64,000 nt of DNA from Tubulanus polymorphus (GCF_964204645.1 NC_134026.1:2976001-3040000); one strand, 5' to 3'. Counted from the stretch's first letter, positions 6,901-32,706 are shown. A program made the numbers and translations. The notes: generated from the sequence alone by a model not told the origin.

Positions 6901-7914
6901 TTAAGTGGATTTTTCTTCAGCAGTCTCGTCATCTTTTTTAAGAATCCAAATAAATTCTTCGTCCCGCACGTCCTGCTCGCTGCAGTCCTTCTCGATTCCG
7001 CTGTCGTTTCGACACCTATCCGCCGGCTCCGCCAAGTCCTTGACCTCCGTATTGATTTTGACCGTAGCGACGACGGGCAAATGATCGAACACATCGCCGC
7101 CGCCCTCGCTTAATTCCGTACGAGATTCATCCGGAGAAATCAACTGACCGTCGTCGGCCATGATCAGCTGTCCGTTCGCCGTCATTTCCGAGCTGAAATG
7201 CCTCCGTCTGCCGGGATGTTTACCGTTCTTCGCCGCTTCGTTCGACGTTTCCTCATCGAGCTCGCCGAGATTGACGGCAGTCGTCGGCACGAACCACAGC
7301 GTCGAATTACCGATGCACGGCTCGTAGAAATCGCTGAACTCGCGCGGACCGCGTCGCCGCGACTTACGCAACGACGACAAACACAAAATCCAATGAGCGG
7401 TCGCCGCGAAAAACTCCAACGACGACATCACTATCAGTAAAACGTCGACCATTTCGAACAGCACCATATCGTCCTGGTGTTCACGTACGATCTCCTCTAA
7501 ATCGATGGCCGTCTTGGCGAGAACGCCGATCGCCAGGATACTCGAACTGATCGAAATCAACATGCACATGACGATGTGCCGCATCAGTTTCGTATTCGCC
7601 GCGTACAATCCGAATCCGCCGCCGGTTAACGCCGCCATCCCCGACAAAACGGCCAAAACAACCGGTAAAACGTGGTCGACGGTCAGTTTGAACACGAGGA
7701 ACAGCTGCATCAGTAAAATCACGATTCCGCACATAACTTGCGTTTCGCCCATCATATTGCACCGATGCGTATTGAAATCTTCGCACGTTTCGGTTTTATT
7801 TACGAATTGCGGCACGGCGAAACGCACTTTGTGCTTTCCTCCTTTGTGATGGTACGGTTTGATGGCAGCTTCCTTCTCGCTGACGCATTCACAGCATAAA
7901 CTAATGGGTGACAT
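6901..7914 (-). CDS. Four-span MS4A/CD20-like membrane protein
   Basis: A single-exon frame of 337 residues. A Cys-rich N-terminal tail is followed by four hydrophobic segments at about 57-77, 81-105, 110-132 and 146-175, and then by a long charged cytoplasmic tail. Spacing and motifs fit the MS4A/CD20-like tetraspan fold: MGETQVMCGIVILLMQ in span 1, a Gly-rich LSGMAALTGGGFGLYAANT loop between spans 2 and 3, and ISISSSILAIG in span 3. The tail is rich in Asp, Glu and Ser. A minus-strand acceptor (tttcag) at about 8022 suggests the start codon lies in a second exon behind a 5' untranslated exon. The family assignment rests on topology and weak motif similarity; TMEM-type tetraspans are the alternative. 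Base composition is clearly richer in GC than the flanks, as in other real exons here. Confidence 0.7.
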   Translation of the reverse strand: MSPISLCCECVSEKEAAIKPYHHKGGKHKVRFAVPQFVNKTETCEDFNTHRCNMMGETQVMCGIVILLMQLFLVFKLTVDHVLPVVLAVLSGMAALTGGGFGLYAANTKLMRHIVMCMLISISSSILAIGVLAKTAIDLEEIVREHQDDMVLFEMVDVLLIVMSSLEFFAATAHWILCLSSLRKSRRRGPREFSDFYEPCIGNSTLWFVPTTAVNLGELDEETSNEAAKNGKHPGRRRHFSSEMTANGQLIMADDGQLISPDESRTELSEGGGDVFDHLPVVATVKINTEVKDLAEPADRCRNDSGIEKDCSEQDVRDEEFIWILKKDDETAEEKST

Positions 7915-7982
7915 GGTGGGTTATTTCTTTCCGTCTCGGATCCAGGAGCTGTGTTAATTGCTACCTGGACGCTATAAAACAC

Positions 7983-9590
7983 TCATCAGGACTGTTACTA
8001 TAGTGAGGCTAGTCTCATACCCCTGAAAAATGAAAGAAAGAGAAACAAATGTTTTAATCACTCATCGGATTATCAAATGAACGTCATAAAATGGTTTTCC
8101 GAAAATCTGTTTCATAAATTGACGTCTTCAACGGAGAAAAAAAAATATACAATATACCCTTTCTCTGTATTTATAAGGGAAGAAAGAAATGATTTAACAG
8201 AGCGCGGATGGTAACAGCGAGCCTCATGCTTCACTCGTGTGCATTCCATGATGCACGAGGCCGCTCCTCTCCCCAGCACAGTGTCTAATTAATAACCGCT
8301 GAATTCATCAGATCACAGCGATAGGCTACAGACAGCAAAATAAAAAGCTAGTTTATTAGATATGAAAATATCTCATATCTTCCGCCGGGTTAAAATATTC
8401 CATTACGGAACTCTTCTTAGTTAGTAACCAGTCTTTTGTCTGCAAAATGGGGATTTAAAAAGTACACAATAACCTTGACATTCATCGACCGCGGATCAGC
8501 TGTTGGTTAAAACGTCAACTGTAAGTCAACGAAAACCGTCTGAATCGGTTAAGATTTTCAAAAAACGATTATTGCACACTACTAACATTAAAATCAAGAT
8601 CGGTTTGCAACTTAAACGCTGTCAAATCAGTATTTCGTTAAGAAAGTGTGTGGGTGTAAACCATGCTATTTTCTAGGAAATTTATCCAGGGTTCAAGCCA
8701 ACCCGGCGCTGCGCAATTTTGCAATCACGCCACTTTTTCAAACTCGATTTAAGAATAAATGACAGCATATCAAAACGCAAATTTGCAATTTATAATATTA
8801 CAGGTATTTAAATTCGTAGCAAAAGTGTCAGATCGAAGTGTTCTTACCCGCAACACAGTTAAATCGGCTCTTAATCCTGCACGTAAAATCCTGCACATCA
8901 GCCATTATTCTAGGATGAGCTACCGGCCGAACTAGGTCAACGCGGCTAGTGCGTCCTCTCGTCGAGAGAGGGCAGTAGCTTACGATCCTGTTAGAGGGCG
9001 CCAGCTGCCGGTACCGAATTCGTGGAGTTCCGAGTTATTGAACCTTTGATCAACCAAACAGCTGTCAAAGTTTTTTGTTTTTATATTGGATACTGGATAT
9101 CGATCTAATCAGATATCGAGTATTCAGGTAAGTTGACAGACGTTAGTAAGTGAAGAATGAGGAATTGCATAATAGGCCTATATGATTATTGAATTTTAGT
9201 AGGCTTGAATTTGAACGGATAAAATGCCAGAGAGAAGAAAGCGAAAGGGAAGGCGGGTGCCCGTTGGAAAAAAACGAACAAGCCGAAAAGGAAGGCTGCC
9301 TCTTTATAGGTGCACCATGGCCGGGCTGGTCTGACTACCATACGATGTACCGTGTTCCCCTTCACTACAGCGATGGGCTGATTAATGCTGTGGACGGTGT
9401 CCGTAATGGTCATGATGGTTGATTTGATATAGGCCTGCTATTACATCAATCATAGTGATAGTTTGAGTAGCATAAATTAAATGAACTGACTGGCCCAGTT
9501 GATGTTTACAATTAATTCGTCAAAAAAGGCACATGCATTTAATTGTCTTTTTTAGATACCACAAATTGTTGGCAAAGAAAACGAGGAATA
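7983..9590. promoter_or_regulatory. Divergent intergenic region and 5' UTR exon of MFSD10
   Basis: This separates the minus-strand MS4A-like gene from plus-strand MFSD10. A splice donor caggtaagt at 9125-9133 and an acceptor ttttttag at 9548-9555 imply a non-coding first exon ending near 9127, joined to the start exon. Sequence around 8920-9010 is CG-richer than its surroundings and is the best candidate for the shared promoter. No other gene is visible. Confidence 0.5.
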
Positions 9591-12500
9591 ATGGCTTCGC
9601 TGACCGCCAGTGGAAGCGGCACTATTTGGATCGTTTTCATATCATTGATTATTGATTTGATTGGTTTCACAGTTATTTTACCATTGTTGCCGGCACAGCT
9701 GGAGTACTATGGCAGACAAGATGAGGTTAGTTATTCCACAATTAGACTGACATCTGACTAACAATTTGGTGCTTTATTTATTTTTACTCGGCCTAAATTC
9801 AATTCCGTGTTGAAACAGGAAGAAGAATACTCTTATCAATAGTGGAATTTTAGAATGAATCTCTTGACCTATAAATAAATGTTCATCGATTCGAAAATTT
9901 TTGTTTTCCAGGATAATTTTTATTCTACAATATTGAAGTCGGTGCGAGGATTCAGAGGACTGGTCGGTGCTCCCGATACCCCGAGATGGAACGCGGTTTT
10001 ATTTGGAGGTAAATGAAAAAATATTCCAATTTTGTATTAGATTCAACATCACTGTATATATGCTTCTATATGATTTGTAGGTTTTATTGGATCATTGTTC
10101 TCAATGCTACAGTTTGTGTCATCTCCATTGACTGGTGCACTGTCTGATGTCTGGGGTAGAAAATCTGTACTCATTATTTCAATGGTAGTTAATCATTTAT
10201 TCATCGAAATTCAGCTTTCAGAACATAAGTGATCAATGCAAGAAGGTCTATACATGTGTTATAGAAGACATGCCTACTCATGTCGCTAAGCTGAGCTTGC
10301 GGTCCATAAAACTGAATCCAAGACTCGAATGGGGCCCAAGAGAACTCAGTATATTTTATAGGCCCTATAGTACATTTTATCTTTCTATTTCAGATCGGTG
10401 TAGCCGTATCTTACGGTTTATGGGCAGTGTCATGGAACTTTAGCTGGTTCGTTTTAGCGCGATTCATCGGTGGACTGAGTAAAGGCAATGTTAGTCTAGC
10501 TATAACTATCATCACAGATTGTACTTCGGTGAAGAATCGCAGTAAAGGCATGGTAAGCATTTCATTATCAGAAACGTCAAGTGTGCTCTGAAGATAACTG
10601 TTGACATCAAAATGTGCATCGAACGTGATGAACTTGTCCATTGTTCGTTTCAATCGAATTTATCGAGCCACTTGCAAAACAAAGATTGTCAAGTGGAAAG
10701 ATTGTAATGCCTAGGAGAAATGTTCTAAGCACTAAGACAATCTGTGAGTTTTTGCTAGATAAAAAATGAATTATTGATTTAATCTACATTGTAATTAGTT
10801 CCAGTGCACAAGTTAAACTTTGAGTATGTATGTATTCTCTATGCAATTTGGTTTGTGAATTTGAATTCTTTGCAGTTCCATCATTTCGCTATTTGTTGAC
10901 AATCGACTAGTGGTGGAGGGCTTTTTGTGGTAGTTACACTGCTCTGGTGATACCTTGATAGATGATACATAGCAAAATCGTGTACACTCGAAATTGAAAA
11001 CGCTCTTATCTAAACCTAGATATATTTTATTTCATATTTCATAATGCACTCTACTAGACATGTTTATTGTACTCACATACTATAATACTTGTATAATAGA
11101 TTCTTTTATACCCAATTGCCATACAGGTATTGCTCTAACTTACCAGTTATGTTTTCTCAAAAACTGATAATTATCTAATTCAATTTCAGGCATTGATTGG
11201 TATAGCTTTTTCTTTGGGTTTCCTAATCGGTCCATTATGCGGAGCAGCATTCGCGAAATGGTCTCGTAGCCATCAAGATGAATTCTTCCAGGCTCCTGCT
11301 CTTTTCGCTCTTGTCTTATCACTCATTGATATACTATTCGTAATCATTTGTCTGAAGGAATCGTTGCCAACACAGAAAAGAGTGAGTACAAAACTGAAGA
11401 AAAATAATTAATTATCCAAATCTGTTTTGTCACTTGTCTATATTTGGTACAAATTTGGATTGTGTCTGTCAAAATTTGTAGAATATTGTGTTTATTATTG
11501 ATTTTATTCATTTTTATTGATACAATGAAAAATAAATTCATTCATTCCCTCACTCGATATGTGTGGGCCTACACAGTTGAAGATGAAATGCTTGATTATT
11601 TTATAGGCCGCATCACTAAGTGATGGTCTATCCGATGCAAGCCATTTGATTAATCCAGTTTCGTTATTCTCCTTCAAAGCTGTAAGAAACATGTCGAATC
11701 GAGGTGAGTTTTAAAGCTGATAAATTGTATTTTGTTCATATTTCCCGGTCTATCCTTTCGATATGAACTTTCTTTTTGCCAGACACGTCAAACTTGCAGA
11801 GAATTGGTGCGGTGTATTTCCTGTATTTGCTGATATTTTCGGGATTAGAATTTACTCTGACTTTCCTCACGCATAATCGTTTCCAATATGACAGGTACCG
11901 TTAACTCGTTAAACTATAATATAGTCCTGATATTTGAAGTAGAAAGAATCAAGAAGTTCATTTTGCGATTTACAGCATGAAACAAGGAAAGATGTTTTTC
12001 TTCATTGGAATTGTGATGGCGACTATACAGGGTAATCCATTATTCCAAACTGCCTAAATTACCAAGTTTGAGTCATTTTAAATGTGTAATACTAATCAAA
12101 TGCCTTCTTTGTTGGTTTTAGGAGGTTATGTAAGAAGAATTAAAGTTGGAACAGAGCAGAAAACAGCTCTTCGGGTAAATGATTCCGCACGGATCATGTA
12201 TTAAAGCCCAGCATTAGTGCGAGATCTCAATTGAAAATTTACTCAATTTCAGGGAATGGTGGCGCTAGTTCCTTCTTTTGTGATAATAGGTTTTACCAAT
12301 AACATATGGCTTCTGTACGTTGCTCTTATATTGTTTTCATTTGGTAAGTACCACTAACCATCATTAGTCAGATTTTTGTCCAACTCGAGAGGTATGATGT
12401 ATAACATATCCACGATTATTTCAGCTGCAGGCACAGTCGTTTCATGTTTAACTACTATCATATCATCATACGGACAAGAAGATCAAAAAGGTCGAATACT

Positions 12501-14237: not shown

Positions 14238-17200
14238 TTAGTACGGAAAGTTACTGAAGTATGGCCCATATTGCATATAAAGCACGCTATTAGCAGCGGT
14301 AACGTAGTCGTGTTCGGGACCGGATTGCTGCGTTTGGTTCTGTTGTTGGTTCATTATCGGTAGAACCACCGGGTTAATCGGCAGGGTATTTTCACCGGAT
14401 ACCGGAGTCATATTGTGCGTGGCGTGCAAATTCGACTGGTTCAACGAGATTCGCTCGTTGAACGGCGGCGCCACCATCTGATTGTGATGACCGATACCCA
14501 TCTGAATAGTCGTTTGATTTATGTTCGTCGGTTGGTTGAGATTCGAATGATTCGGCATCGAGTTACCGTTACACGACGCGGTCGGCGTTATATTCATCAT
14601 CGAACTCTGTACGCACGACGACGACGGAATAGCCAAGTGATTGACGGATAACGGAGCCGACATCGCCGACATTTCGGTCAAAATTTGACAATTCTGATCC
14701 GAAAGCGATCGCACGGATGTGATAATAGGCGAAGGGTTCATCGGCAAGTTAACGTTAATCCGTTCTTTCGCCGCCGGTTTCGGTAACGCGGCGTTCTTCT
14801 GGACCGGTGCCTGCGGTAAGAAATCGGCGTCCATCGGATTGTCGAGTCGTTTAATCAGAGAATCCGCCTTCAACATGGTCGTGTCGCCGTGCGTTTTCAT
14901 GTGAACGCGGAGATTATCCGATCGCGAACACGTTTTACCGCAAACCAAACAAGCAAAACGTTTATAATCGCTGTGCACGGTCTTCTTATGCTTCGTCAAG
15001 CCGCCTTTATCCGGGAACGATCGTTGACAGACGTCGCACGTGAACGGTTTTAAACCGGAGTGACGTTTCTCGTGCGCGGCCAAACGCTCTTTACTCTTGA
15101 ACTCCTTCGCACATATACAACACCGGAACGGCGTTTCCGTTTTGTGCACGAGTTGATGTGAGTAGAGCGTCGCGTTCGTTTTGAACGACTTCCCGCAGAT
15201 GTAACATTCGAAGCGACGTTCGCTGCCGTGCGTGACGATATGAGCGTCTAGATTACTCTTATACATGAACGTATGGCCGCATATGTCGCACATAAACCTC
15301 GAACCGGCGTCCGTGTGTCGGCGTTCGTGAGCCCGCAATAAACCTTCCGTTTTGTACGTCTTCTGGCAGACGTTACACTGGTACATTTTACCGGTGGTGT
15401 GAGCGGTTTTCTCGTGCGCTTTCAACGCGCTTTTACTCACAAATCCGTTGTTGCAGATCGAACACGAAAACGGGCGTTCGCCTTTATGAAGCATCATGTG
15501 CATCTTTAAACTGCTTTCGTACGGGAAATTCTTGCCGCACGTGACGCATTTATATTTTTTCGGATTATGAATCGCGTCGACGTGGCTCTTCAGATGCGTC
15601 GCCGTCAGGTACGATTTACTGCAATGAGGACACTGGTGCGGCCGTGTCCCGTTGTGATGCAACAGATGCAACTTCAAGCTGTGATGAAAGTTGAAACATT
15701 TCTCGCAGAACTTGCACTTGTACGGTTTCTCGTTGCTGTGCACGCCGCGTTTGTGATGGTAGAGCGTACTCTGCGCGGTGAACACTTTACCGCAGATATC
15801 GCACGTGTGAGACCGATCTTTCAGAGATTTGTGTCGCATCATGTGCTTACGAAGCGTTCGTTTCGACGAACAAACCTTGTTACATACTTTACATTGCAGC
15901 ATCTCTTTACAGTGACTCTCTGTGCGGTGTCGGTGTAAATCGACGACGCGGGTGAACGATTCGCCGCATATCGAACAGATGTGATTATGCGCGTCTTGCA
16001 GATGCGACTGCAACTCGGTGCGATTACTGAACAATTTATAGCACCAATCGCAAGAATAACCTGTCAGGTTGTGTTCGTCTTTCAAGTGTTTTTTCAGCTC
16101 GATTTTTTTTGCGAATTCGATCCGGCAATCGGTGCACTTGAATTTCAGTTTGTGACTGTTCATATGGGCTCTTAACCTCGTCGCCGATAGGAACGATTTG
16201 TTACACTGCAGACACACGTGCAACGAAGCTTGGGCTTTGTGTCGCTTTTTATGCTCTTTAAACGCGCGAGGCTGATTCGTAGAAAACGGACACTCGGAAC
16301 AGATGTACTGACCTTTTTTACTTTTGCGCGCCGACCTAGTTCTAACGGGGTTCGGGTTCGGTTGACTATCGATCTCGGTATCACTGCCACTGTCAGCATC
16401 ACGTATCAAATCTAAACAATTTGAAAATTGCGATAACGAACAAATTAGATTAACTGGCGTGAATTGGAGTGGATTAATTGTAACAAGATGCACTAATCCA
16501 CACTTATTACATATCATTCAGGACCAATGAAATCAATCGGATGAGAAATCCAGATTAAACATTACATGTAACCCTTTAAGTGAGTCTAACTCTTCATCGC
16601 AGTGCTCCAGTTTAACATTATATCTAACCCTTTAAGTGGGTATAACTCTTCACCGCAGTGCGGTGTATAAATCATTGATGAACGTTGTTAAAACACTGCA
16701 CTGCGGTGTTTTGATATTATTTCTACTACTTATATACTCTATTGAAAGATGGCAGCACCTGTCAAAAATTAGAAAAACGTTACGCTGCAGCGCAGTGTAG
16801 ACGCACTTCATTAAACAATGTAGAGCAATGCAATTTTCCAAAATTTTCAAATCATCAGCACTTATAAGGAAGAATTTGTCCGCACTGAAAGGGTAAAGTG
16901 CAACAGGAGCTAACTTACCGGCCAAAGCAATATCATCATCGTCGTCATCATCATCATCGTCATCATCAACATCTTCAACCTCTTCTTTCTCATCCTCTGC
17001 TTTTGTAGCTTGCAATTCTTTACTTTCTCTATCATTAGCTTCAAGATCATCATCTGGAATATCGTCGATTTCATTCTCGGCTATCGAATTCACATCTCGA
17101 TGATTTTCATCCAATGTTGTATCGCCGATGACGATACGATCGTCCGCATCGTGTTCTCCCGATCGATCAGCCGTCTGTTCCCGATCGGACGTTTCACCTC

Positions 17201-17726
17201 CGTCGAAATATTTCTGCGATTCGTTGATCAAATTTTGCAGATGATTTCGAACTTCGAAATCGTTTTTGGCAGTCGCCGCATTATCGAACGAGATATCGGG
17301 AAAAAGCACATTATTCTCTGATTTATCATTTTCGTTCAACGCTTGAACGTTGTCAGTCGGTAAAGTTTTGGTAATCGGCGCAACTTCAAAATGATTGGCA
17401 TAATTCGGCGGCATCGACTGCGTAGGTAGACGCGTGATTGGCTGCAACGTTTCGCGACTATCGAAACGATTCGTAACGATTTGATTCTGCGGCGGATGAC
17501 TAACCGATTCGTTCAACGTTACGTAAGCGATTTCATTATCGTCGATGTTTAGTTTCAGGTTGCCGGTGACGACGACGAACCCGGAGAATTTAACGTAATC
17601 TTGACAGATTTTAGTTAACGCTCTAACGAGTAATTTCTGTACAATTTCCGCTACGCGTATTTCTGGTGGTTGAACGCAGCGCGTTGTCGATATTTTGGTG
17701 GCGTTTGTTGGTTGTTGATTTGCCAT
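14238..17726 (-). CDS. 17-finger C2H2 zinc-finger protein
   Basis: Two exons, 17726-16919 and 16411-14238, join through a donor g|gtaagt and an acceptor tttag|at to give 993 residues. The first exon encodes an acidic, largely disordered region that ends in a run of ten Asp residues. The N-terminal part (about 25-75) has helical and strand-like sequence of unknown fold. The second exon opens with an SGSDTEIDS acidic stretch and then holds 17 C2H2 fingers, including degenerate ones at both ends (for example CSECPF, CNKSFL, CDWCYK, CGKTCSRSDN), with TGEKP-like linkers partly lost. A Gln/Asn/Pro-rich tail follows. It is presumably a nuclear DNA-binding regulator. Long poly-zinc-finger proteins evolve fast and I cannot name an orthologue. 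Frames running past 16919 into the intron are not coding. Confidence 0.9.
16568..16905. repeat. Degenerate inverted-repeat element in the zinc-finger gene intron
   Basis: Two copies of a taaccctttaagtg end occur at about 16570 and 16627. A matching inverted end, cgcactgaaagggtaaa, lies at about 16889-16905. Between them are palindromic accgcagtgcggtg-like motifs. The ends resemble the intact 296-bp element at 46229-46524, so this is probably an older relative. It fills most of the intron. Confidence 0.65.
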
Positions 17727-18267
17727 CTGTCATCGGTCTGTATTGTTAAATAGAGAAAATGAGATTTAATAGGAATGCATCATAAACTGCAGAATGAATG
17801 AATGAAAAGTATATGACCAATAATCCAATAAAAAGTAAAAAATTAAGCTATAAGAGTTCAAATAGCTTGTACAAATCAGTTAGTTAATAAGTCAAAGCGA
17901 ATATTTGAATTTTTTGCAACCCAGTTTTTCCATGCTTGATTAGTAGACGTAGTAGTTGTTTTAGTTAGTTGCGGGATATTTGCCAAAATTGAGGTACAAA
18001 TTATTTAGGTACAAATCATTTTTCTTTGAAAAAAAAACAACAAACTTTTTTACCTAATTTGGCCACACACCACAAGGGTATAGAGACGAATTCAGTGATT
18101 CAGCAACGGAACGGGAAAAGAAAAATTTATTAGGAAGGTTCTTTGGACTTGGTCCGCCGTTTGACGACTCTCGATCCTGCGTTCTTTTCTCAGGCTGGTA
18201 GATCCTTCCTTCGTGTTCCTTGATGCGGTTAATTTTGCCTTTGTGTAAAAATGTATCTTCAGGATGG
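17727..18267. promoter_or_regulatory. 5' flank of the zinc-finger gene
   Basis: About 540 bases lie between the zinc-finger start codon and the left end of the large transposon. No exon is recognised. It probably holds the promoter and 5' UTR of the minus-strand gene, so the transposon sits very close upstream. Confidence 0.4.
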
Positions 18268-18276
18268 GATCAAATC
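18268..18276 (+). repeat. Target-site duplication, left copy
   Basis: GATCAAATC abuts the left inverted repeat and is repeated exactly at 30374-30382. Mutator-like elements typically duplicate 8-11 bases, most often 9. Confidence 0.9.
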
Positions 18277-18320
18277 GCAAAAGGTTGAAAGCCTGTTTTG
18301 GTCGATGGCTAGTGACGTCA
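18277..18320 (+). repeat. Left terminal inverted repeat (44 bp)
   Basis: It begins gcaaaaggttgaaagcctgt and ends tgacgtca. It matches the reverse complement of 30330-30373 at 43 of 44 positions, with one mismatch at 18310. The inner eight bases, TGACGTCA, are a perfect CRE/ATF palindrome. Similarity stops abruptly on both sides, which defines the element end. Confidence 0.95.
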
Positions 18321-18439
18321 TCAAGATCGCCTTTTTGTTACTCCCACAGCTAAACAACTCACTTTTAACGGTTAACCGCTGAATTTGAATTTTCTGTCAA
18401 GTGTATTCTTGCTGGCTGTTGATTAAAAGATTGTGAATC

Positions 18440-21400
18440 ATGTTTTCCGAACGTGTTAAGCTTGTCTCCGGACCAGTTGGTGGGAATATTGGTTTGAAAA
18501 AAGAGGTAGATTGCAAGATTATAAAAAACTCACTGGGTAACACTGGTGAACGCCGCGAGGATCGTACACGGTGGTGCAGGCGAGGCGTCGCGACCGCGCG
18601 GCGGCAGGGCTTTTTAATTTTGGCTTTTGCCAGTTTTGGAGTCTTGTTATTGCCACCACGGCCACGTTACCACCACACTCACATTGTCGCTAGGCCTACT
18701 GTACTGCCACTACTTTACTTGCTACTTACTCGGCTAAATTAATTTGTCTTCATCCACGCTTACTTCCCCCCTCCCCCCCCCCCCCCATGTTAACAAGTAA
18801 TTTCTGCCAACCGAACCACCAGTCGCAGTAGCCGTAGGCAGTATACTATAGTGCAGTAGTGGGTACCCAGTGGCATGCCATTGCCATGCCACTGGGTATA
18901 GGCCTATGTTGCCCGTACACAGTCACCACCTACTAGGCCTTAAATATTCCAACAACCATTCCAAATCCAGCAACAAAAAATAAACAATAAATTTTAAGGC
19001 CTCGAAACAGAAGAATGGTAGTTCCCTGTATTCAGAGTCAATGAAAATGTATTTCTTGTTGCAGATAGATAGCCTAACCAATTTCAGGATAAGTACTTTT
19101 CATTCCTTTATTTATATACGTAGCCTAACTGTTTAATCCTGGCCCTGGCCACTGAGGGTGTATGCATTAGGTCTGGTCCCAGTTTCACTGAGCTAGTTAG
19201 CCAACAATTAAGCTGAGAAATTTTGTTAAGTGGCAATTCAGGGGCAGATCAGGAGAGTATACAGGGGTGTACACCCCTTAAAACTTTTAAGTTGCAATGA
19301 AATTTAAAGGAAAAATTAAAAATATCAACAAGTATTTTTAAAAAGCTTATATTCCAAAACATGTTCTCTGTAGGCCTACTTCCAAAATATAGGTATTATG
19401 TTTTCTGATGATCTGGTGCCCTTTTGATTTTTAATTATATATGATACTGATATGTATGCCCTATTTTGGGCTGCACCCCTCCCTGAATCAGTCTGCCTGC
19501 AATTAAGAGGATGTTTATAGATAATTTGATTTAGAGGAATCTTTTAATTTAGTGCCTGATGTTAGGCCTTCCACAGCCTGGTAGAGGTGGTTTAGGTGAA
19601 CAAGTTAGTCTTCACACTGCAGGACTTTTAGGTGAAGGTGAAACTGGCCCTTGTTTATGCATAGGCTACTGTGTGTGCACGCTTATCTTTATGCTTATTC
19701 AATTAGAATACCCATGTAGCTACCAAATAAGCACCGCTTCAGAGGATTTTAGAAATTTTCACTTCAATAACACTGTGTTCTATTTTTGGGCACTAGCTAC
19801 TATTATGCACAATTTTTCAATCAATTCTATCACATTGATATACATATATGTGTCACTTCTTTTGCATGTAGTAGGGTCTTACAGTAACCAGTGTGCTCTC
19901 TCACACCTCCCTGTGATATTGGCCTGAGACTGACAAATAATCTTTTTTGTAGCGTATTGGTCTCGTAGCAGACAGCATTTTAAAGTATGCTGGGCTAGAT
20001 GGTGTAGGCTTATTTGAATGGACAAGGATCGTGTGCCCCGGAGGAACCATTGAAACATTGATGGAAGGTAATTTCTCGGTTCAGTACTGATTTATATTGT
20101 TCATTTTCATTGGGTTACTGATTAGTTGTATATTACAGAATTGAAAAAGGTGAAGATGCTGAATGTGGAACAACTAATCGTCCATGTTGGAACAAATAAT
20201 ATGACGCGTGATGTCCCGCTTGAGATTGTTCTGCGAAGACACGTTGAATTAATTCGATTGTTGCTCTATAAATGTACTGGGACCATCATTGTACCAGCTC
20301 TTTTTCCTCGATGTGATGAGTAAGTATCAAGAATAGATTTTTCTTGAAGTACTATATTTATGATCGATGTAATGATTTTTAAATTTCTTTCTTTTTTAAA
20401 GTTTCGATGCTGACACAAAAATATTTCATTACAATGAAATGCTGCACCGCGAATGCTTTACACTTGGTGTAAAGTTCGTTGATTTTCACTTCTCAAGAGA
20501 TCTCCTTTCACCGTAAGTAATCGTTTAATTTTAATAAGCCCAGTAGGTTATGTGCATTTTTTCGCGATTTAAACTAACTTGTTTTTTTCTAAATTTTGTG
20601 ATCTAGGACTGACTTGTTACACCCCAGCCGTAAGGGAAATCAGTTCATAAATAACAGGATAATGGAACTACTGCTATTGAAAAATGAAGATGAAATGTAC
20701 GTAGAATTGCATTATTTTATCCAATTACCAGGTATGCAAACTACATAAATTTGATGATTGTACTGGAAATAATGAATGATTCTTAATCAGGTGCCCTCAA
20801 TACTTTCCATATGAGATTGAAAAGATGCAAAGAAGTAGAGCAGTCCATCGACGAAAGGTAATCATTTAGCATTGATATCCTAGAAAATGAATGATTTGCA
20901 ATTAGTTTTTATAACTTGAATACGAAACCACTTTATTCAAAATCCTTGCATTGAATTAATGAATCATATTGATAGCTGATAGCAAAAAACAAATTGAAGG
21001 ATGATCAAGCAAGAGCATGGGATGATTCAACAATAGTGGTAAAGTTGTTTTCCTAAGTGATTTGTACGTGATTTATCTTTATAAAGTTAGATATATTTTA
21101 ACAGTTTTTTGTATCCTTCAATCCAGTATAGCAGTTTTGACGTTGCGCATCATACAAGGAAACAATTCTGTTGTGAAGATCAAAGAGCCTTTTTCACATT
21201 CGACCAGGTACATATCATCTCAAGAACTTATGATTTAATATTAGTTTGGTCACTTTTATTTCACAATTACCTAAAGGCTGTGCATGCACAAATCTGTCTT
21301 TTTTTTCCAGTACATGACTAAAATTGATGTGGCTGGTGTTGCTATTTGTTTAAAGCCTAAATTATTTACTCCTTTTTATCAGACTAAGAACGTGAGTAAT

Positions 21401-24400
21401 ATGTTTCTCGAAATGAAATTATAGAAATTCATTGGTATTGGTATGATTTATGCTGTAAAGCTTTGTTTTCATATTCAGGGATGCTACAATAGAAGTTGTC
21501 ACAATACTAAAAGATTTAACAGAAAAAGGAAGTCAGTGGAACATGTAAGTTTGATGCCCTTTCTGCGAGACGCGGGTTCATTTTTGTTATTTTTGCTTAG
21601 ATGTTGAAGCAAAAACAGATTAATGTGCTCTTCCACATTAGGTTATTCATCCACAGACGGATCCTGCTGACTCGACATGTTTTTGCGGAGTCGAATTCAC
21701 CAATTGGAAAGATCTTCTAGACCATGTTAGTTTAAACCATACTGAAATGTAAGTACAACATAATTCAATTAATTTAGTACCTACAAATCTAAATGACTTA
21801 ATGCAAATGACTCAGAGATACCCATGTTTTATGTTAGGCCTATATGGGTAATTTCATACTCTATCTATTCATATGTCTAAAAAAAGTGAGTTGATAATGT
21901 GTATTTCAGGCGGACAATGGAGGAAGAAGGAAAGGACGCGGCTTGTGACAATTTCTCGGAAGGAACGATAGAGGAAGCAGAAAAGATGCAGGAAGATAGT
22001 TCGAAAGAAAGGATAGAAAGATTAAAGATGCAGGAAGATAGCTGGATGGAAAACAAAAAACAGCTAAGTATCACAGGTGGTGGAGGTATCGAACCAATCA
22101 TAATTGATGATAGTGATGAGAATGATTCTGATGATGAACATGTATGTAGAAGAAATTTTAGTTACAATCCAACAGAAATGTGCCTCAATGACTATCAGTT
22201 TTTGAAAATTCCTCCTGTTATGCCATCAAAGGTCACGTCATTCAGAATTTGTGACATGTCTAATTCATGTCATTTGGCTGATGATGCCCCCACTATGCCC
22301 CACAAAAATCAGTTGGAGGACATAAAAGCACAGATGCAGTCAAGGATTGTCCGTGACCCTTCCATTAATATCCATGTGAGACTCGATACAGGCTGCTATT
22401 CTATTGATCAGATTAATAGGTTTCTTTTCTTACATTATGCTAAAACCAAACAACAAGATCTTTTTGCCATGAATCTTTGGGTAAATAGTAAGCCTTTAAG
22501 CCCCACTGATTCAGTCGATTGGGAACAGATTCAAGCATTTTCAAATATGCTCTTTTCCTTAAAACCCTCTCAACAATTTCCAGTTGGTAATAATAATAGC
22601 GTATCTGTATCAGAACTTCAGACGATGACTAATCAAAAATGGTTTGAAGGATCTGTGTTAAATGCTTTTGCATCTATGATAAATGAACAGTACTGTAATA
22701 TTCATGCATTTATGATGCCACTTACATTTGATGCTAAGAAATATGTTTCAAATTTATATAAAAGATTCGGTCCTAATCCACTCATAAGTTGTGATAAACT
22801 AATTTTTTTCCTGCATGTTGGCACCCAAAACGATTTCGTATTTCTAAATTCTTATGGACATGTTGTTGCCAATCATTATGCACTAGCAGTTTTTTACCCA
22901 AAAAGTAACAAACTGTGTTATGCTGATACACTAGCATGGGATTGTCCAAGGGAATTTAAAAATCATTTAAGATCTGTTTTGAAAGGTTTGAATTGCCCTG
23001 ATCCTGTTTATATCCACCTCCATGATCCTCATTTTGTTACTGAAAATTCAGTGCATGTATGTAGTAATAATTGTACTAGTTATTACCCACTCCAATCATG
23101 TTCATCTGTCTGTGGCCCTGCTACATTAATTGGTGCTTGCATTGCAACCTATTATGAAAAGGATATTTCAAGTGTATTTTCATCTCCCAATGAATTATCT
23201 TATCTTAAGAACATTTCTAACTATTCTGATTTTGTTAGATTGATATTGATTAATTGGCTTATGAAACATCTAATTGATATTACTCAACTCTTCTCAAAGT
23301 CATCTCAACCTACTGCTAATAGTACTACTTTCTCTAAGATATCACGATTATCTCGCAGACAGAGACATAAACGATCAACTGAGTCAAATAATACACTAGC
23401 TAGTTCTGAATTAAAGATGTCAGACTCTTATATTGCCCCTAAAAAAAGCAAATCAGTCTTAACTACAGCCAAATCTAAATCTACACCAATTTTGAATAAT
23501 GAATCAACACTTGAATCTACACCAATTTCGAATTATGAATCTGCAGCAATTTTGACTAATGAATCAACACCAATTTCGAATAGTGAATCTGCACCAATTT
23601 TGACTAATGAATCAACACCTGAATCAACACCAATTTCGAATAGTGAATCTGCACCAATTTTGACTAATGAATCTACACCAATTTCGAATAGTGAATCTGC
23701 ACCAATTTTGACTATTAAATCTACACCTGAATCTACACCAATTTCGAATAATGAATCTACACCTGAATCTACATCCTCAATTTTGAATCCTCAATCCTCA
23801 TTAACTATAAATTCAGCTGAACCATTAACTTCCCATATTAATGGTTCTAAAACTACTATCTCCCATCGCATCAGGAGAGGAAAGCATTATCTTGAAGTTG
23901 CTTTTCATTCAACTGGCAGTAAGACGAAGTATAAAAGTTTTCATTGTACAGACCAAGGTACAAATGACCAGATAGCCATTGACACTATCAAGAAATACCT
24001 CAACAACCAGAATCCACTTAGTGATGAATGGGTTGAAAATGGGGAAGTAATGACTGGTGCTGACACAAAATATTATTTCGATAGATTCACTTTTGATTTT
24101 ACAAAAACAGTTCGTCTGCATAAGAATGTGCGGCCTTCATTTGTTGGTAACCAGACAACGATGAAAGCTTCCTTAACATTAAAAAAGAATTGGCAAACCC
24201 ATAGATTAGATAATAAATTTGAATTTATTGAGCCAATTGTTGAGGATACTTCTCAATTTGTGGCTGCAGAAATGCTCATAAAATGTTCGTCAAAGTCTTC
24301 AGTTTGTAAATCATCATGTGGATATTATCTTTCAAAGTTGAATATGTCCAGTAACATCACTAATTGTCCCTCATGTCAAATTGACGTTGTTTTAAATGAT

Positions 24401-27400
24401 AAACAATGTATTCATTGCTCCATTACCATGTCTAACAAATGGAGGAAAAATGCTGATGGTGAAACACTTTGTTCCAACTGTTACAACTATAAGCTGAAGA
24501 ATAAACGTGATCGTCCTGTGAAGTTAAGGCAGCAGTTTGAGCCAAAAAAATTAATTCACCCTCATTTTATGTGTTATTGGGCAACGAAACTTGTATTATT
24601 TAGTACTGATTTATCCAAGTGGAGAATCTTCAGCAAACCACTTAATGGTCAATATCATGACAATATTCCTTTACAAATTAAAAAGCGACCTAATTTATCT
24701 ACTAGAGATAGATGGGATGAAAATAGAGTCATGATGAAAGCCACAGCAATGAAGGTTCTTTCTGCCACCAATGCTCACAATAACCTTCATGTATCAAATG
24801 TAAATGATGGCGCCGGTCATGACCATACCCTAGATCAAATTTCAAATAGATTGAAATATATTGATAAATCTTCGATAAAATTACATATGAAATCTCAAGA
24901 CGAAATACCTATTCTAAGTTCTGATTGGAGAAATACTGAAAAATTATTAGAGGGTAACTATGAATCTGTCCTTTTATTTCAACGAGGGGATGCCACACTC
25001 AAACGTAATTATCACATTATTCTCTCTGATCCTCGTTCTCTGGAACATTTATCCAACTTTGGACAATCTGTCATTGGTATTGACGTGAAACATGATTTCA
25101 ATTCGTGGAAATTCAAAACTTCATTTGTAACTTTTGCAGACAACAAAAATGAAGGACGTATTGCTGCTGCATCAATTAGTAGTGATGAAGGGGGGGCTAC
25201 TCATGCAACTACCATCCAGTTAGTTCTAGCCAATACACCATGTAAAGACGAAAAATGTAATCATCCATCTGAATTCTATATATTTAATGATGGCAATGGT
25301 TTTTTCAGAATCAAGCCATGTTCATCAACATCTAGATTTTGTCCTTTTGTACAACATGATAAAGATGCAAGTCTAAAGCAAGGAGCATCTGACAATAATC
25401 TTAAATCAGTACTATGTAATTTTCATGTCCTGCAGTGTATTCGTCGCTTCATGAATGAAAATCAAGAACTTCGCTTATTTTGCAAGCCTCTAGAAACTGG
25501 TTTCAAATGCATTATGAGATCATGGGATGCTTCCTCTAGAACTGATATAGCCAATTCATTTATTAGTTTTATTGAGAATGATATTTCTTTAGACCTTATG
25601 TCGCAAGATACAAAAACATTATTTATTGATTACCTAAAGAAGAATTGGTTTAATTCCCAAATTTGGTCTGATGCATTCAATGCTGAATCAATTTATCAGT
25701 CAGACCAATCTAACAGAAATAACCCTTTGCTATTAACTGATAATATTACTGAGCGCAAATTCAAACAAATAGATGATGTCTACTTAAGTGGACACCTAAA
25801 TAAACTGATATCATCTTTTGTACGATTACTGTTTGAAAATGTTTTTAATGATGAGATCAAAGCGACAAATATGAACAATCTCCAATTTAAGCAACTTGAC
25901 CAACGAGTTAAGAATATACGTCACCTTGAAAAGATAGAAAAGTGTTGCAAAAGAGCCTTTGATTTTTTACAGAATAATGAGATTTTAAAATATGATGAAG
26001 AAACTAATTGGTTTGTTGTGAAGAGTTCTTCACGAAAGAACTTAAATAGGTTAGAAGATAATGATAATTTTTTCAATGGTGATACTCAATATACATTCAA
26101 TCAGCTTGATGTTTTAGAAGAAAGATTCCCCGATAAAGTATCAATATCCGAGGAACATTCATATGACATTTCAAAAAAATGCCGAAGGTACATAGGAAAT
26201 TTAGATTCAATATCCAGTCGTATCTTATTCAATTACGTTATTACAATCGTTCCTGAAAATTGTCTTTCATACGTAGATGGTAATTGCCATTTAATCAATT
26301 TGAAACTAGGTATATGTACTTGTGAAGCTTTTATAATGATTGGACAACCATATTTTTGCAAACATCTTTTTGCCTGTTTTGCCCAAAAAAACAATATAAC
26401 CACAACGAAGGCTTTAATTGATGCATATAAATTCCACATTGTGGAGCCTCTGCCAACTTACAATTTTACTCGACAAAATATTTCTGTTTCATCTACCCTC
26501 ATTGATAAGTTAAAAGATCATTCCCACATTGCTAGCTCGAATGATATCAATGCTGCTCGGAAAGGGCACATTCTAAGTATTTTACATAATGAAAGCCACT
26601 GTGGAATTAAGTTAATAAGCGGACGACCTGCCAAACGACAACCTCACAATATGGCTCATAGGCGTGCTGAGGGTCCAATCAAGGACAATCAGGTTGCCAT
26701 AAACCTTCCTGAACTTGAAGTGATAGACCCTTACTGCCCTAAGGTTACAATGCCTAAAGATGCTGAGAATGCAAGACACGGAGGGCGAAAGATAATTAGA
26801 CCTGCTAACAGAGGTGTATCCTTTTCTGCTATGGTTGAAAATGCTGCTATCAAACTAGGTAAAAAAGCTAAAATATCAGAAATTGAAACCATAGACTCCA
26901 CTGATCCAGATCCTGGCAATGATATCGAATTTTCAGCAGATATTTTAAGTCAGAATAAATCATCCTTACCAAAAAAATCAAAAGATACCAAACCAAAAGA
27001 TATTAAGTCAATACCAGTTGTTAAAAATGACTCGAAGTCTGTTTTATTTGAAAAAAGTATTGTCTGTTCCTTTTGTATTAAAGACAAAATAAATCCTCCA
27101 TATCTTTGTTCATGTCGCAGGGAACTAGATAGGCACATATCCACTTCTCATTCATCTTTGAAACCTATCTCATGTGCTATTTGTTGGGCAGATGGGGTTA
27201 TTAATTCATATGCAAGTGAAACATTCCTTCAAAAGCACATTCGTATTGAACATAATCATCATAAGAAAAAATCTATTGTAATCGATTATAATAATAGAGA
27301 TGATTATCTCAACAGTTCTCCTATTACAGAAATCAATAATTCCAATTCTGAAAAAGAATTAGAAATTCTTATAGATCAACCTGGAAATGCAGGCCTCCAA

Positions 27401-27646
27401 AACCTAGCAAAATTGAAACTAGATAATCTTTTGTCATCAAAAGTTGAAAAAACCCCTTCTCAGTTAGTTGCTGAAACCTGCCCTGTCTGCCACAAAAACT
27501 GCAATGCTAATCCTAAGAAAAAGTCCACATTCTCAATTGAATGTGATAATTGCCATAGATGGTATCATTGGAAATGTGCTCCAATCAATGAGGCTCCTCC
27601 TGAACATATCAGGTGGTTTTGTTTTCATTGTGACCCGATTTCCTAA
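18440..27646 (+). CDS. Multidomain MULE-type transposase with SGNH, Ulp1, GATA, SWIM and PHD domains
   Basis: Twelve exons join in phase: 18440-18505, 19953-20067, 20139-20319, 20402-20512, 20607-20696, 20791-20857, 20976-21038, 21127-21207, 21311-21391, 21479-21544, 21642-21748 and 21910-27646. The product is 2254 residues. Residues 23-175 are an SGNH-hydrolase fold: block I VADSIL with Ser30, HVGTNN at 76-81, and DLLHPS with Asp160 and His163. A Cys/His finger (CFCGVEF, LDHVSLNH) lies near 320-340. A SUMO-interaction-like PIIIDDSDE is at 405-413. A Ulp1/C48-like protease spans about 590-780 (His665, Asp682, Gln739, Cys744). A Ser/Thr/Pro repeat occupies about 867-968. A GATA-type finger starts near 1176 (CIHC, WRKNADGETLC, SNC). 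The MULE DDE core has Asp1401, Asp1493 or 1495, CNFH at 1512-1515 and Glu1624. A SWIM finger uses Cys1812, Cys1814, Cys1826 and His1828. Two C2H2-like fingers lie near 2060-2125, and a PHD finger spans 2200-2250. The first exon is the least certain: other start exons may hide in the 1.4-kb intron 1. Confidence 0.88.
18766..18786. repeat. Poly-C tract
   Basis: Twenty C residues are interrupted by one T, within intron 1 of the transposase gene. Confidence 0.9.
18864..18898. repeat. Perfect 14-bp-stem hairpin
   Basis: tacccagtggcatg and its exact reverse complement are separated by seven bases in intron 1 of the transposase gene. No function is apparent. Confidence 0.85.
23480..23790 (+). repeat. 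In-frame coding minisatellite in the transposase
   Basis: Repeats of about 36-51 bases encode units such as STPISNSESAPILTNE. They form a Ser/Thr/Pro/Glu-rich linker between the Ulp1-like domain and the GATA finger. Copies differ by few bases, so the array expanded recently. It looks disordered and phosphorylatable; it may be only a spacer. Confidence 0.9.
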
Positions 27647-28419
27647 ATAGTTTGTATAGAATATTATTGATCGGGTTTCGAATGAATCCCTGACGTTAGA
27701 AATATTTTCATTTCCCATGGTGAACGTAGAAGCCTATAATGACCGTCACTTAGTCACCTATATATTTACTCGATTATATATAAGGTTAAGAAGCGATGTA
27801 TATGCACTGGTGTTTATAGTGCTCTATTTCAGGTTTTTTCTTTCAGGAAAATATATTTTGTGAATAGATTACCGCTTGATTTTTTATGTTACAGGTTACT
27901 GCAAAATCATCAGTTATTGTGATGCGTGCCGATGTCTCTGGATGATTCTGACCATGTCTAGAACTTCAACATCCTTGACTTATCATCAATTGGCTGCAGT
28001 ATACATACATGCATGTTCAGAGAGTGTATGAAGAGAGTGTATGGACACATCAACCTCGGTTCAAGGCTGTCCCTGATTAAATTGTATAATCCATATATAA
28101 TATATATAGATTGGTCCCATTTTAACTTACTCAACTGCTTGAATGTCTTGTTTGTTATTCGTAAATTTTCACTTATTCATTGATTGTTTCTGTAGAATTT
28201 TATATGTGATATATAAACGTGGAAACCAGGGCCCATTGCACTATGAAAGACACTTGACATTTTTTTGGGACAGATCTTTCTATATGTTTATGTCCTCGAG
28301 GCATCTGAAGTTAAGAAAATTCCCTTTGAAAACTGGAAATGACATAATGAAATAAGTTGTGGAATGTTTACAAATGACAAAATGAATGAATTTTGCATTC
28401 CTAAGGCCCTATATATTTA

Positions 28420-29290
28420 CTGCAGTTAGTCCTGTATGTCTTTTTTATCGCAATTTACTGTGGTTTATTCCTGTTTGTCCTGTATGTCTTTGTGATCGCG
28501 ATCGCAATTCATTGGTTGCATTGTTTACTGTTAGTCCTGTATGTCTATCGCAATTAAGTTAGTCCTGTATGTCCTGTATGTCTTAGTTAATCGCAATTCA
28601 TTGGTTGTTGAATTGTCTACTGTTAGTCCTGTATGTCCTGTGGTTTAGTCCTGTATGTCTTAGTTAATCGCAATTCGTTGGTTGAATTGTCTACTGTTAA
28701 TCCTGTATGTCCTGTATGTCTATCGCAATTAAGTTAGTCCTGTATTTCTTAAATAATCGCAATTCATTGGTTATTGAATTGTCTACTGTTAGTCCTGTAT
28801 GTCCTGTGGTTTTGTCCTGTATGTCTTTGTGATCGCGATCGCAATTCATTGGTTGCATTGTTTACTGTTAGTCCTGTATGTCTATCGCAATTAAGTTAGT
28901 CCTGTATGTCCTATATGTCTTAGTTAATCGCAATTCATTGGTTGTTGAATTGTCTACTGTTAGTCCTGTATGTCCTGTGGTTTAGTCCTGTATGTCTTAG
29001 TTAATCGCAATTCGTTGGTTGAATTGTCTACTGTTAATCCTGTATGTCCTGTATGTCTATCGCAATTAAGTTAGTCCTGTTTGTCCTGTATGTCTTAGCT
29101 ACGAGCAATTATCAAACTTGATAATTGCTCGTAGGTCTTAGTTAATCGCAATTCATTGGTTGCATGGTTTACTGTTAAAGCTGTATGTTCTGTATCTCTA
29201 TCGCAATTTCATTGGTTGCATTGTTTACTGTTAAAGCTGTATGTTCTGTATCTCTATCGCAATTTCATTGGTTGAATTGTTAACAGTCCT
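28420..29290 (+). repeat. Complex minisatellite with 337-bp higher-order period
   Basis: Units are built from ttagtcctgtatgtc, atcgcaattcattggttg and gaattgtctactg. A larger block starting at 28488 recurs almost unchanged at 28825, a 337-bp period. It lies inside the transposon, downstream of its gene. It might be a subterminal binding array for the transposase, but that is inference. Confidence 0.9.
29099..29134. repeat. Perfect 17-bp-stem palindrome
   Basis: ctacgagcaattatcaa is followed by ac and then the exact reverse complement. It interrupts the minisatellite. It could form a cruciform or an RNA hairpin. Confidence 0.92.
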
Positions 29291-29430
29291 CTGTATGTAC
29301 ATGTAAAAATAATTAAGGTTCTGACAACAGGTTTGTAAAGTAATCAGCTATCTGTTTTGTCTATCGTTGCTTAAATTGTTAACTGTTGTTTTAGAGTTCT
29401 GTATGTCTTTGTCGATCATTTTGTCTGCAC

Positions 29431-29671
29431 TCAGGGGCGGATCCAGCATTTTGAAGGGGGGGGCAAATGAAAGCAACAACAGATGGCTGTAAGCCATTCC
29501 AGAGCAAGCACCGATAACGCGAAGACCCTTCCTAAAAATTTTTTGGAAAAATAGATGCAAGCAGGTGCATTCTGAGCATTACTTAATAGAAAGATTTCAT
29601 TCGGTTTTTACTCAGTAACGCATAGATTTGCGGCTACATCGGTAAAAATAGAGGGGTGGATCCGCCACTGA
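29431..29671. mobile_element. Nested short inverted-repeat element (MITE-like)
   Basis: Ends tcaggggcggatcc and ggatccgccactga match as inverted repeats at 13 of 14 positions, 241 bp apart. No coding capacity and no clear target duplication. Similar ggatcc-type ends occur around 48412-48530 and partly near 19240, so it appears to be a small family. Confidence 0.6.
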
Positions 29672-30329
29672 ATAGCTATTGTTTTGTGTAGGATTGTATC
29701 TGTGAATTAAGTAAAGTTACTTACTCCAGTCTGATGTTATTGCTTATTGCTCGTATTTTATTGTTTTAAGTGTGCGAATACTTTTCTTAGATTTATGGAG
29801 ATCAGGATGACGAGGGTTCGATTTGAACCAACAAATAAACAAAAACATTCAAACCTCAAATTAATCCGTTTACTTGTCTTTATTTTTGGGGAACATTTTT
29901 TTACCTAGTTCAGATTTGATAACACAGTAGTCGCTTGTTCCAAAGCGATGTGCCGTTGAAGACAGACCTGAAGGTCTTTGCCGACAGCGATGCTATCCAG
30001 GATTTCAAAGGATGTGAAGAAGGTGCATCTTCGACAACCATAGTTTGCAGTTTTAACAATTTAAAACAATAATAGTTTCATTAAACAACTTAAAATTTAA
30101 AGATTTAGTGGACTTACTGTTTAACCAGGGCAGGGATTTCTCTCAACCGTACATGATATATACATACACTAGCAGTAAATACAATGTACTTCTAACCCTT
30201 ATAAAACTTAAACTATTATTAGTTATTTTACAATTATTAAACGGCAACGTTGAAATGCGATGTGCGCTCAGAGCGGCCGTAGTGATTTTGGCGTATTGTG
30301 GGATTCGAACCGCTCGGAATTTGTACTAG

Positions 30330-30373
30330 TGACGTCACTCGCCATCGACCAAAACAGGCTTTCAACCTTTTGC
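30330..30373 (-). repeat. Right terminal inverted repeat (44 bp)
   Basis: It is the reverse complement of 18277-18320 with one mismatch. Its inner end again carries TGACGTCA (30330-30337). Its outer end abuts GATCAAATC. Confidence 0.95.
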
Positions 30374-30382
30374 GATCAAATC
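30374..30382 (+). repeat. Target-site duplication, right copy
   Basis: GATCAAATC is identical to 18268-18276 and in the same orientation, immediately outside the right inverted repeat. Confidence 0.9.
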
Positions 30383-30770: not shown

Positions 30771-32706
30771 ATGGCATGTTCGTCACGGGGTGAACATGCT
30801 CTCTCTGTAACATTCAGAAAACGAAAAATCAATGTTTTTGCTGATCCGCAAAATGAAAAACCGTCGGCGTCGGTGTTGAAATTCCAGTATCAACCCTTGC
30901 TGGAACTGGAAAGTGATTCGACATGTAGCGAAAATAATTTGCTGCTGCTCTCAGTAACTATGTGGAGTGAGGAACTCGAAGAAAAGATTTACGAGGAATT
31001 AGGATCCATCTATCAAACTGTCAATATACAAATGATGCCACTGGACGAGGTACAAAAAAACTTGCCACCAACTTTCAGTTTCATCAGTTCATGGCGTACC
31101 AACTTCGATCTTGAAATCATTACATTTTACTAGTAGCCTAATGTAAGGCTTTTCTTCTTTTTAGGTGAAATTAGAATGGAGAAACCCGCCAAACAACATT
31201 TGCTTTGATGATCCAGTTTCATTAGATCATTGTCCTATGGTCCATGTATTTACTGTGGAATGTCAGAATGCTGCAGCGGCCAAAATATATGCCAACCAAA
31301 TTCGCCGTTCACCGCAAACGCTCGCCCGAGGTTTGCATGTTTCTGCGATATGCGATGGCCAGAAATCATCGCTAAAGATTAATTTGGGTTGCGCTCCTGA
31401 AAGACAACAAGGTGGAGGCAGCAATGATGCCGATCACTCATCCAACGGAGCTAATGATGTTGCGGAGCTGATGACAACTGTCAAAGAAAATATTGCACAG
31501 GTGGAAGAAAAACTGGCACTGAGTTTGAATGCTATGAATGAAGACGTTAAACAATACCACGACAATATGGAAAATCGTTTCACTCATCTCGAAACAACTG
31601 TCAATCAAGTGGCACAATCAACTAGTCAAGATCCGACGCGCGAAGAACTGGCCGCTGTGAACGAACTATTTAGGAAGTTAGAGTTGGATGTGACGCAAAT
31701 CCAGAGAGACCAACGCGTAAAGGACGAAGAAACGAAAGAGTTGAAAAATCGATTGAAAGCTACAAACGATTTATTAGAGGCTGCAAATGATCAAATCAAA
31801 GAATTGAAAATTAAGCTCGAAAAAACGACGACAAAAAGCAAAGATTTTACCGTGGCCTACAGTAAACAAATATTAACCTCGTATAGGCAAGATTATATGA
31901 CGGTTATTCCTGCTGAACGCGATGGTGCCAAATCACTTTTGATAACTGCTGATTGTAGGAAAGATGCTAGTCTTTTCTGCTATGACAGTAAAAGAATAAA
32001 TACATATTTGTCTAATAAGGAAACCATACGAGGATTAGGTACTTCTAATGATGGTCGTCTGTACGTTTTAGTTTTTCTAGACGACGGCAGTTCATACTTG
32101 AAGCAGTACAGAAAGAAGGTTCCTCTAGCTGAAGATTACATCACAGATATCATCACAGTCGATGCCGCGACGTGTCATCTTTCATTCGTCCTGAAAAATG
32201 ACGTCGCATACATTCAAACGCAAACGAAGATATTCGCGATGCCGCTCGATGAAAAATCTGGTCTAATCGATAGGAATAAGATGGCAATTCGTGAATTACC
32301 AGATAATTGCTCGTCCGAGTGGATTAATAGTTTTGATGTGAATGACCGCGGTGAGATGTTCCTGTTTTGCTACAGACGAAGGCGGTTGTTGTATCTAGAT
32401 TCTGATTGCGGTTTGCTCGATGGTTTCGTCGTAGACCTGCCGGATCTACCGTTCCCGCCTCATCTCGTTTTCCCGCACGTACTAAGCGATTCCAGTTTGC
32501 TGTTGTCCGTCAGTCCCAAGGTAGAAAACAAGGGAGCTTTGATCCTCGTTGAATATGACCGGGAATCTTTCCAAGGGTCGAAAATTATCTTCACTGAAAT
32601 TGACAGCATATTGTGCGATTTACAGATAGTTGACGACGAGTTGGCAGTTCGTCATTACGACAGATCCAGTACACAGAGAGCATTGCGGTTGTATAAGATA
32701 AACTAA
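30771..32706 (+). CDS. Unrecognised coiled-coil protein with beta-propeller-like C-terminus
   Basis: Two exons, 30771-31049 and 31165-32706, join in phase (gacgag|gtacaa, tttttag|gtgaaa) to give 606 residues. Residues 1-180 form a mixed region that includes a stretch rich in Cys, Pro and hydrophobic residues (PNNICFDDP, HVFTVECQ). Residues 185-320 are charged heptad-like coiled coil (VEEKLALSL, NRFTHLETTV, LEAANDQIKELKIKLEK). Residues 330-606 alternate hydrophobic strands with DGR/DRGE turns, for example SNDGRLYVLVF and VNDRGEMFLFCY, like TRIM/NHL-type propellers. There is no RING or B-box. I do not recognise the family. The whole frame is open, has coding-like composition and is followed by AATAAA near 33048. 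Confidence 0.75.

Follow-up and report, generated by a model that had tools for sequence, protein, structure and literature searches.

A recently active Mutator-superfamily transposon of Rehavkus-like architecture appears to join an SGNH hydrolase and an Ulp1-like protease to its transposase

A 12-kb insertion with target-site duplications

The window, i.e., the whole 64-kb stretch of DNA analyzed here (G000:C2:2976001-3040000), is part of a 267.8-Mb eukaryote assembly. It contains a transposon of 12,097 bp (18277-30373) bounded by a 5' terminal inverted repeat (TIR) that begins with GCAAAAGGTTGAAAGCCTG (18277-18320, plus strand) and a 3' TIR on the minus strand (30330-30373), two 44-bp repeats that are identical at 43 of 44 positions. 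Directly outside of them lie the two copies of a 9-bp target-site duplication (TSD), GATCAAATC (18268-18276 and 30374-30382). Matching 9-mers also flank all 4 further copies that could be read at both ends (CGTATGGCA, GTTTGATAC, CTTTAAACT, and GTTGAAAAT), so that a 9-bp TSD is present in 5 of 5 such copies including the window element. Because the flanks match at each copy and differ between sites, they are the signature of an insertion and not a chance repeat, and the TSDs show that the element was inserted with a 9-bp stagger. Together with paired ends across the genome (see below), these features bear out the complete, MULE-like transposon of the preliminary description and show that it is multi-copy. 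Between the gene of the element and its 3' TIR lies a minisatellite (28501-29281) with units of 56, 74, and 166 bp, and minisatellite arrays are also present in the paralogs P51 and C39 that are discussed below.

On one side, the transposon is flanked by a minus-strand C2H2 zinc-finger gene (14238-17729) with 9 C2H2 stretches and on the other side by a plus-strand open frame of 513 aa (31165-32706); the two genes probably diverge from each other, with the element in their 5' region. MULEs often insert in the 5' regions of genes. Elsewhere in the window, an exon at 60769-61359 strongly matches the Pfam model MNR (Protein moonraker; E 3.9e-21).

A single open phase from the SGNH exons to the transposase

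The coding part of the element, all on the plus strand, can be read from 19953 to 27646 through eleven GT-AG exons in one phase and without conflict, yielding a predicted product of 2232 residues. Its first four exons (19953-20067, 20139-20319, 20402-20512, and 20607-20696; together 19953-20696) encode an SGNH/GDSL hydrolase domain and are followed by five linker exons with phase-matched GT-AG borders (20791-20857, 20976-21038, 21127-21207, 21311-21391, and 21479-21544; span 20791-21544), the first of which has a counterpart in the diverged locus L052 (see below). Then come an exon with a C2H2-like finger, CFCGVEFTNWKDLLDHVSLNH (21642-21748), for which related exons exist in the paralogs P51, P48, and C39, and a main exon of about 1911 codons (21910-27646) that ends in a TAA stop and is open in 7 copies. 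Within the main exon, an in-frame tandem repeat of ~24-108 bp, NESTPISNSESAPILT (23478-23773), forms a low-complexity linker of ESTPISN type that is absent from P51. The preliminary description had counted twelve exons and 2254 residues, of which eleven exons and 2232 residues stand; the twelfth was probably a candidate first exon at 18440-18505 (MFSERVKLVSGPVGGNIGLKKE), whose 22 aa would bring 2232 residues to 2254, yet its donor is weak, agreeing with the consensus at just 5 of 7 positions, and no independent support for it was found.

The diverged paralog P51 on C6 (L009 and L010) retains an intact 5.3-kb main exon and can be read from an ATG through SGNH exons and a C2H2-like exon into this main exon, in phase and stop-free over 2183 residues. 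Intron positions in its SGNH part differ from those of the window element. From the SGNH exons to the main exon, 8 of 8 introns of P51 and, independently, 10 of 10 in the window are GT-AG and phase-compatible. This phase-matched splicing in two diverged lineages supports a model with the 5' exons in the same transcript as the transposase, and a single gene most likely makes one large fused transposase.

Domains of the predicted product

The SGNH part displays the motif blocks ADS, GG, GTNN, and D-x2-H (DLLH) and matches PF13472 above the Pfam cut-off both in the window product (E 5.6e-9) and in P51 (E 2.3e-9). When the window SGNH was compared by sequence to solved structures, the best match was ZfL2-1 (PDB 4c1b) at a non-significant E of 0.26.

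Downstream lies a putative Ulp1/SENP-like cysteine protease domain (22523-23266) with H643, D660, Q716, and C722 of the 2232-aa model as catalytic residues. Pfam Peptidase_C48 gave no match in the window product, including searches with single domains. An AlphaFold model of the region reaches a mean pLDDT of 50, a middling confidence, with most of the core at 60-74; in a Foldseek search of this model against the PDB, SUMO proteases ranked first (E 2.8e-6), and VIA aligned 187 residues of it to 1euv with a Z of 11.2 at an rmsd of 4.5 Å. The spacing of the catalytic residues (17 residues from H to D and 6 from Q to C) is the same in the window element and P51 and equals that of yeast Ulp1 (H514, D531, Q574, and C580). 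The Ulp1-like part of P51 as a whole is 32% identical to that of the window. Predicted structure and catalytic spacing thus support an Ulp1/SENP-like domain. Immediately N-terminal of this domain is a SUMO-interaction-like motif, EPIIIDDSDENDSDDE (SIM-like; 22091-22144), in whose place P51 carries EEIIMISDDETSD, and such a stretch beside an Ulp1-like domain would fit a SUMO-directed protease.

The remainder of the main exon encodes a zinc finger of the form C-x2-C-x17-C-x2-C (24407-24487; conserved in P51), the candidate DDE transposase core with D1379, D1471, LCNFHVLQCIRR (C-x2-H), and E1602 (25082-25753), a SWIM finger C-x-C-x11-C-x-H (26315-26365), two C2H2-like fingers recognized from the sequence and the P51 alignment (27065-27253), and a C-terminal PHD finger (27479-27631) that matches PF00628 above the Pfam cut-off in the window product and in P51. 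We call the first of these fingers GATA-like because its Pfam score is below the cut-off (E 0.0013-0.0026; 17.7-18.7 bits vs 26.8) though its cysteine spacing is intact. The Pfam MULE and SWIM models gave no match in the window product, single domains included, an AlphaFold model of the DDE/SWIM region built from two sequences was unusable (pLDDT 31), and a DDE profile matched the canonical MULEs of the host weakly (P 0.011, Prob 3.8). We recognize the DDE core and the SWIM finger by motifs conserved in paralogs, up to 10 of which, mostly decayed, have a nearly invariant second D, C-x2-H, and E where these stretches are covered. Among individual paralogs, L044 has N at the first D, P_C8 has D at the H, and C39 has lost one SWIM cysteine. 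The protein of at least seven modules proposed in the preliminary description is therefore retained for SGNH and PHD by Pfam, for the Ulp1-like domain by predicted fold, and for DDE and SWIM by motifs, whereas its GATA finger can be called only GATA-like.

An old association of SGNH and transposase

All of these modules occur in the same order in P51: SGNH, C2H2, SIM-like, Ulp1-like, GATA-like, DDE, SWIM, C2H2, and PHD. Protein identity between P51 and the window in the transposase part is 43-51% (43.5% over 1371 columns), and conservation of the modules in an intact paralog at this distance excludes chance. This set of domains occurs again in distantly related copies within the same genome. 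In the 20 kb of P51 sequence examined, its 3' TIR was not found. P48 and C39 (L013) are relatives of P51, and the comparison of P51 with C39 gave a dN/dS of 0.249 for the main exon and of 0.147 for the SGNH domain over 97 alignable codons, which indicates purifying selection on the SGNH domain where this is testable. C39 also contains a recent internal duplication (3029-3669 vs 4801-5440; 99% identical) that includes SGNH exons.

With the window SGNH as a query, we additionally found diverged SGNH exons at L050 (C10), L051 (C4), and L052 (C7). At L051 and L050, these lie upstream of diverged transposase remnants at distances of ~16.5 kb and 5 kb, respectively. The exons of L052 (G000:C7:9333300-9335000) are 51-61% identical to the SGNH exons of the window with the same intron positions, and no transposase neighbor of L052 was found among the genome search results. 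Because SGNH exons recur in diverged lineages, the association of SGNH domain and transposon is old and has been mostly maintained; in the decayed lineage L050, a proline replaces the catalytic SGNH histidine.

Genome-wide, there are at least 81 SGNH/GDSL matches (on C1, C6, C8, C12, and others; L053-L061), and the retrieved loci, L053-L061, lie in long open reading frames that resemble ORF1 of non-LTR retrotransposons, with zinc knuckles in several of them. Capture of the SGNH domain from the CR1-like ORF1 of this same genome is not favored, given that a tree of transposon SGNHs and same-genome ORF1 SGNHs separates the two (support 90/86), though this tree is weak with 11 short rows.

Copy number, recent activity, and deletion derivatives

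The 32-bp end sequence occurs around 65 times in the genome at up to 3 mismatches compared to zero hits for a reversed control. Further copies in the same genome, for which the preliminary description had suggested looking, are indeed found: at least 25 pairs of ends face each other at element lengths of 2.1-17.3 kb, and the full 1918-codon main frame is kept in 7 genomic copies, with 1770 codons of it in an eighth. For the first 424 bp of the element, 10 copies were reported, with the top score at 100% identity. A second full copy is 99.8% identical; leaving the minisatellite aside, 15 mismatches separate the two in 10.5 kb. This copy together with the 7 intact main frames indicates that the transposon was recently active.

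Near-identical elements of 6.86 kb at three sites (two on C3 and one on C11) appear to be a single deletion derivative. The one that was sequenced, at C3:6469429, consists of element positions 1-2432 fused to 7793-12097, so that the D1-D2-CxxH core is missing, and several elements of 4.77-4.79 kb are also without a transposase match. Since these deleted derivatives keep intact ends, mobilization in trans is suggested.

Classification

In our view, the element belongs to the Mutator (MULE) superfamily and is an autonomous cut-and-paste transposon that was active recently, is built like members of the Rehavkus branch, and encodes one fused multi-domain transposase, a reading to which we assign a probability of roughly 75%. 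Rehavkus elements have been described as an outgroup or sister of MULEs that is characterized by a 9-bp TSD, TIRs between 26 and 400 bp long, a single ORF, a PHD finger, and a minisatellite that precedes the 3' TIR (PMC6446971), and Rehavkus-1_TC has a length of 9.5 kb (PMC10218199). The window element shares four structural hallmarks with them (9-bp TSD, 44-bp TIR, PHD finger, and the minisatellite at 28501-29281) and, like Rehavkus-1_TC and Rehavkus-1_HR, is large, while SGNH, Ulp1-like, and GATA-like domains are not mentioned in the published accounts of Rehavkus consulted here. We claim Rehavkus architecture and not proven membership, for the likeness is to published descriptions rather than to transposase sequences. 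The MULE-like reading of the preliminary description is thereby upheld, but it had missed TSD, PHD finger, and minisatellite as the marks of a class already known. At the motif level, C-x2-H lies between the second D and E as in MULEs, and 9 bp is within their TSD range of 8-11 bp. Canonical MULEs, including L035 of the same genome, share with the window element these TSDs and the order of D, DKD...LC-x-FHVL-x3-RR, E, and SWIM, whereas the window element is much larger, adds SGNH, Ulp1-like, GATA-like, and PHD modules, and escapes detection by PF10551 (MULE), which has no match in its product and does not list it among 56 places in the genome. A lack of PF10551 is compatible with Rehavkus because the latter is described as a MULE outgroup.

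We think it improbable that the element instead belongs to another undescribed MULE-related lineage that carries PHD finger and minisatellite independently. Such a lineage could be conceived because the likeness to Rehavkus is one to published descriptions, because aphid Phantom elements are also listed with a minisatellite (PMC6446971 Table 1), and because Rehavkus is reported from arthropods and annelids while the present host is probably not an arthropod: it has TTAGGG repeats and no match to PF00379 (arthropod RR cuticle), though the control for this search matched nowhere. Against it, a PHD finger is found only in Rehavkus among the groups of that table, and the element also agrees with Rehavkus in its TSD length, in a TIR within the reported length range, in having one gene, and in being large. 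The likeness to KDZ elements drawn in the preliminary description does not hold, and a KDZ element of Zisupton type in place of a MULE is highly improbable. The large multi-exon gene would be in line with the multi-exonic Zisupton elements (PMC9297572), but PF18758 has no match in the window product or in P51, and the Zisupton TSD of 8 bp (PMC12730594) differs from the 9 bp seen here in 5 of 5 copies; we therefore reject KDZ membership.

Possible functions and relation to other mobile elements

We propose that the predicted RNase H-type DDE core would cut at the TIRs and insert the element with a 9-bp stagger, that GATA-like, C2H2, and SWIM fingers may bind the element ends, and that the PHD finger could plausibly bind chromatin. 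The SIM-like/Ulp1-like pair might strip SUMO from local silencing factors and let the element escape repression. We favor such local deSUMOylation because the Ulp1 of plant VANDAL elements (VANC gene) has been linked to silencing escape (PMC13317346). The SGNH domain may have a lipid or acyl ester as its substrate or ligand, a role that has been proposed for the ORF1 esterase of CR1/L2 elements, and our guess for its target is a membrane or an acyl-protein.

Two other readings of the gene and its product deserve weighing. Cutting of the polyprotein itself by the Ulp1-like domain, releasing SGNH from transposase, rather than action on host SUMO would suit the position of this domain, which has the SGNH/linker part on one side and the DDE core on the other. 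In some viruses, related CE-clan proteases cleave viral precursors, and such folds are also among the VIA matches of the Ulp1-like model. We nevertheless regard self-processing as unlikely, with SUMO proteases as the best fold matches and a SIM-like motif directly preceding the domain in both the window element and P51. Rather unlikely, too, is a two-gene element in which the SGNH exons form a separate cargo or helper transcript and the start of the transposase lies close to the main exon, e.g., at MEEEGKDAACDNF. That the main exon alone contains every transposase module and an early ATG speaks for two genes, as do the unconvincing start exon preceding SGNH, exon 8 of P51, a short linker exon that is unconstrained (dN/dS 0.96 between P51 and C39), and the fact that the joined transcript is deduced from genomic sequence; the GT-AG and phase-compatible introns of both lineages argue against it and for the fused transposase.

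Individually, these features are known already: some MULEs carry Ulp1, Rehavkus has a PHD finger, and SGNH domains occur in other mobile elements. Plant MULEs with an Ulp1-type protease (Kaonashi/KIU VANDAL) belong to the same superfamily and have been linked to silencing escape (PMC13317346), but their Ulp1 lies in an accessory gene of VANC type and the elements are non-TIR, whereas the domain described here is part of the transposase frame of a TIR element. The best analog of the window SGNH is the ORF1 esterase of ZfL2-1 (CR1/L2; PDB 4c1b), which binds acidic phospholipids and shows esterase activity (PMC3905857); it, too, is an SGNH protein of a mobile element, but in a retrotransposon ORF1. 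SGNH proteins have also become associated with mobile elements independently as Texim genes on fish Helitrons and as GDSL ORF3 of rotifer LTR retrotransposons (PMC4021074, PMC5408684), which are separate genes in other element classes, in contrast to the fusion of SGNH with a DDE transposase proposed here. The papers searched describe no SGNH-bearing cut-and-paste transposon and none that combines SGNH, Ulp1-like, GATA-like, DDE, SWIM, and PHD, though Repbase may hold one.

Tentatively, and at less than even odds, we read the element as a member of a long-lived transposon lineage in which a single transposase polypeptide includes both an anti-silencing protease directed at SUMO and a lipid/acyl esterase, which would be the first SGNH-DDE fusion; SGNH in at least 4 unrelated mobile-element classes would then hint at a shared host barrier. 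That diverged lineages have kept an esterase as well as a SUMO-protease-like domain suggests that each is important for transposition. Rehavkus is known almost solely through Repbase entries, and a young multi-copy family with intact frames and diverged relatives in one chromosome-scale genome makes gene structure and domain set testable. Two further ideas become testable as well: that deSUMOylation bypasses silencing, and that SGNH enzymes, previously known from retrotransposons and Helitrons, have a role in a DNA transposon.

As a side observation on the assembly, TTAGGG arrays lie near the contig ends of C1, C4, and C7, some tens of kb inward, which suggests that they are subtelomeric interstitial telomere repeats.
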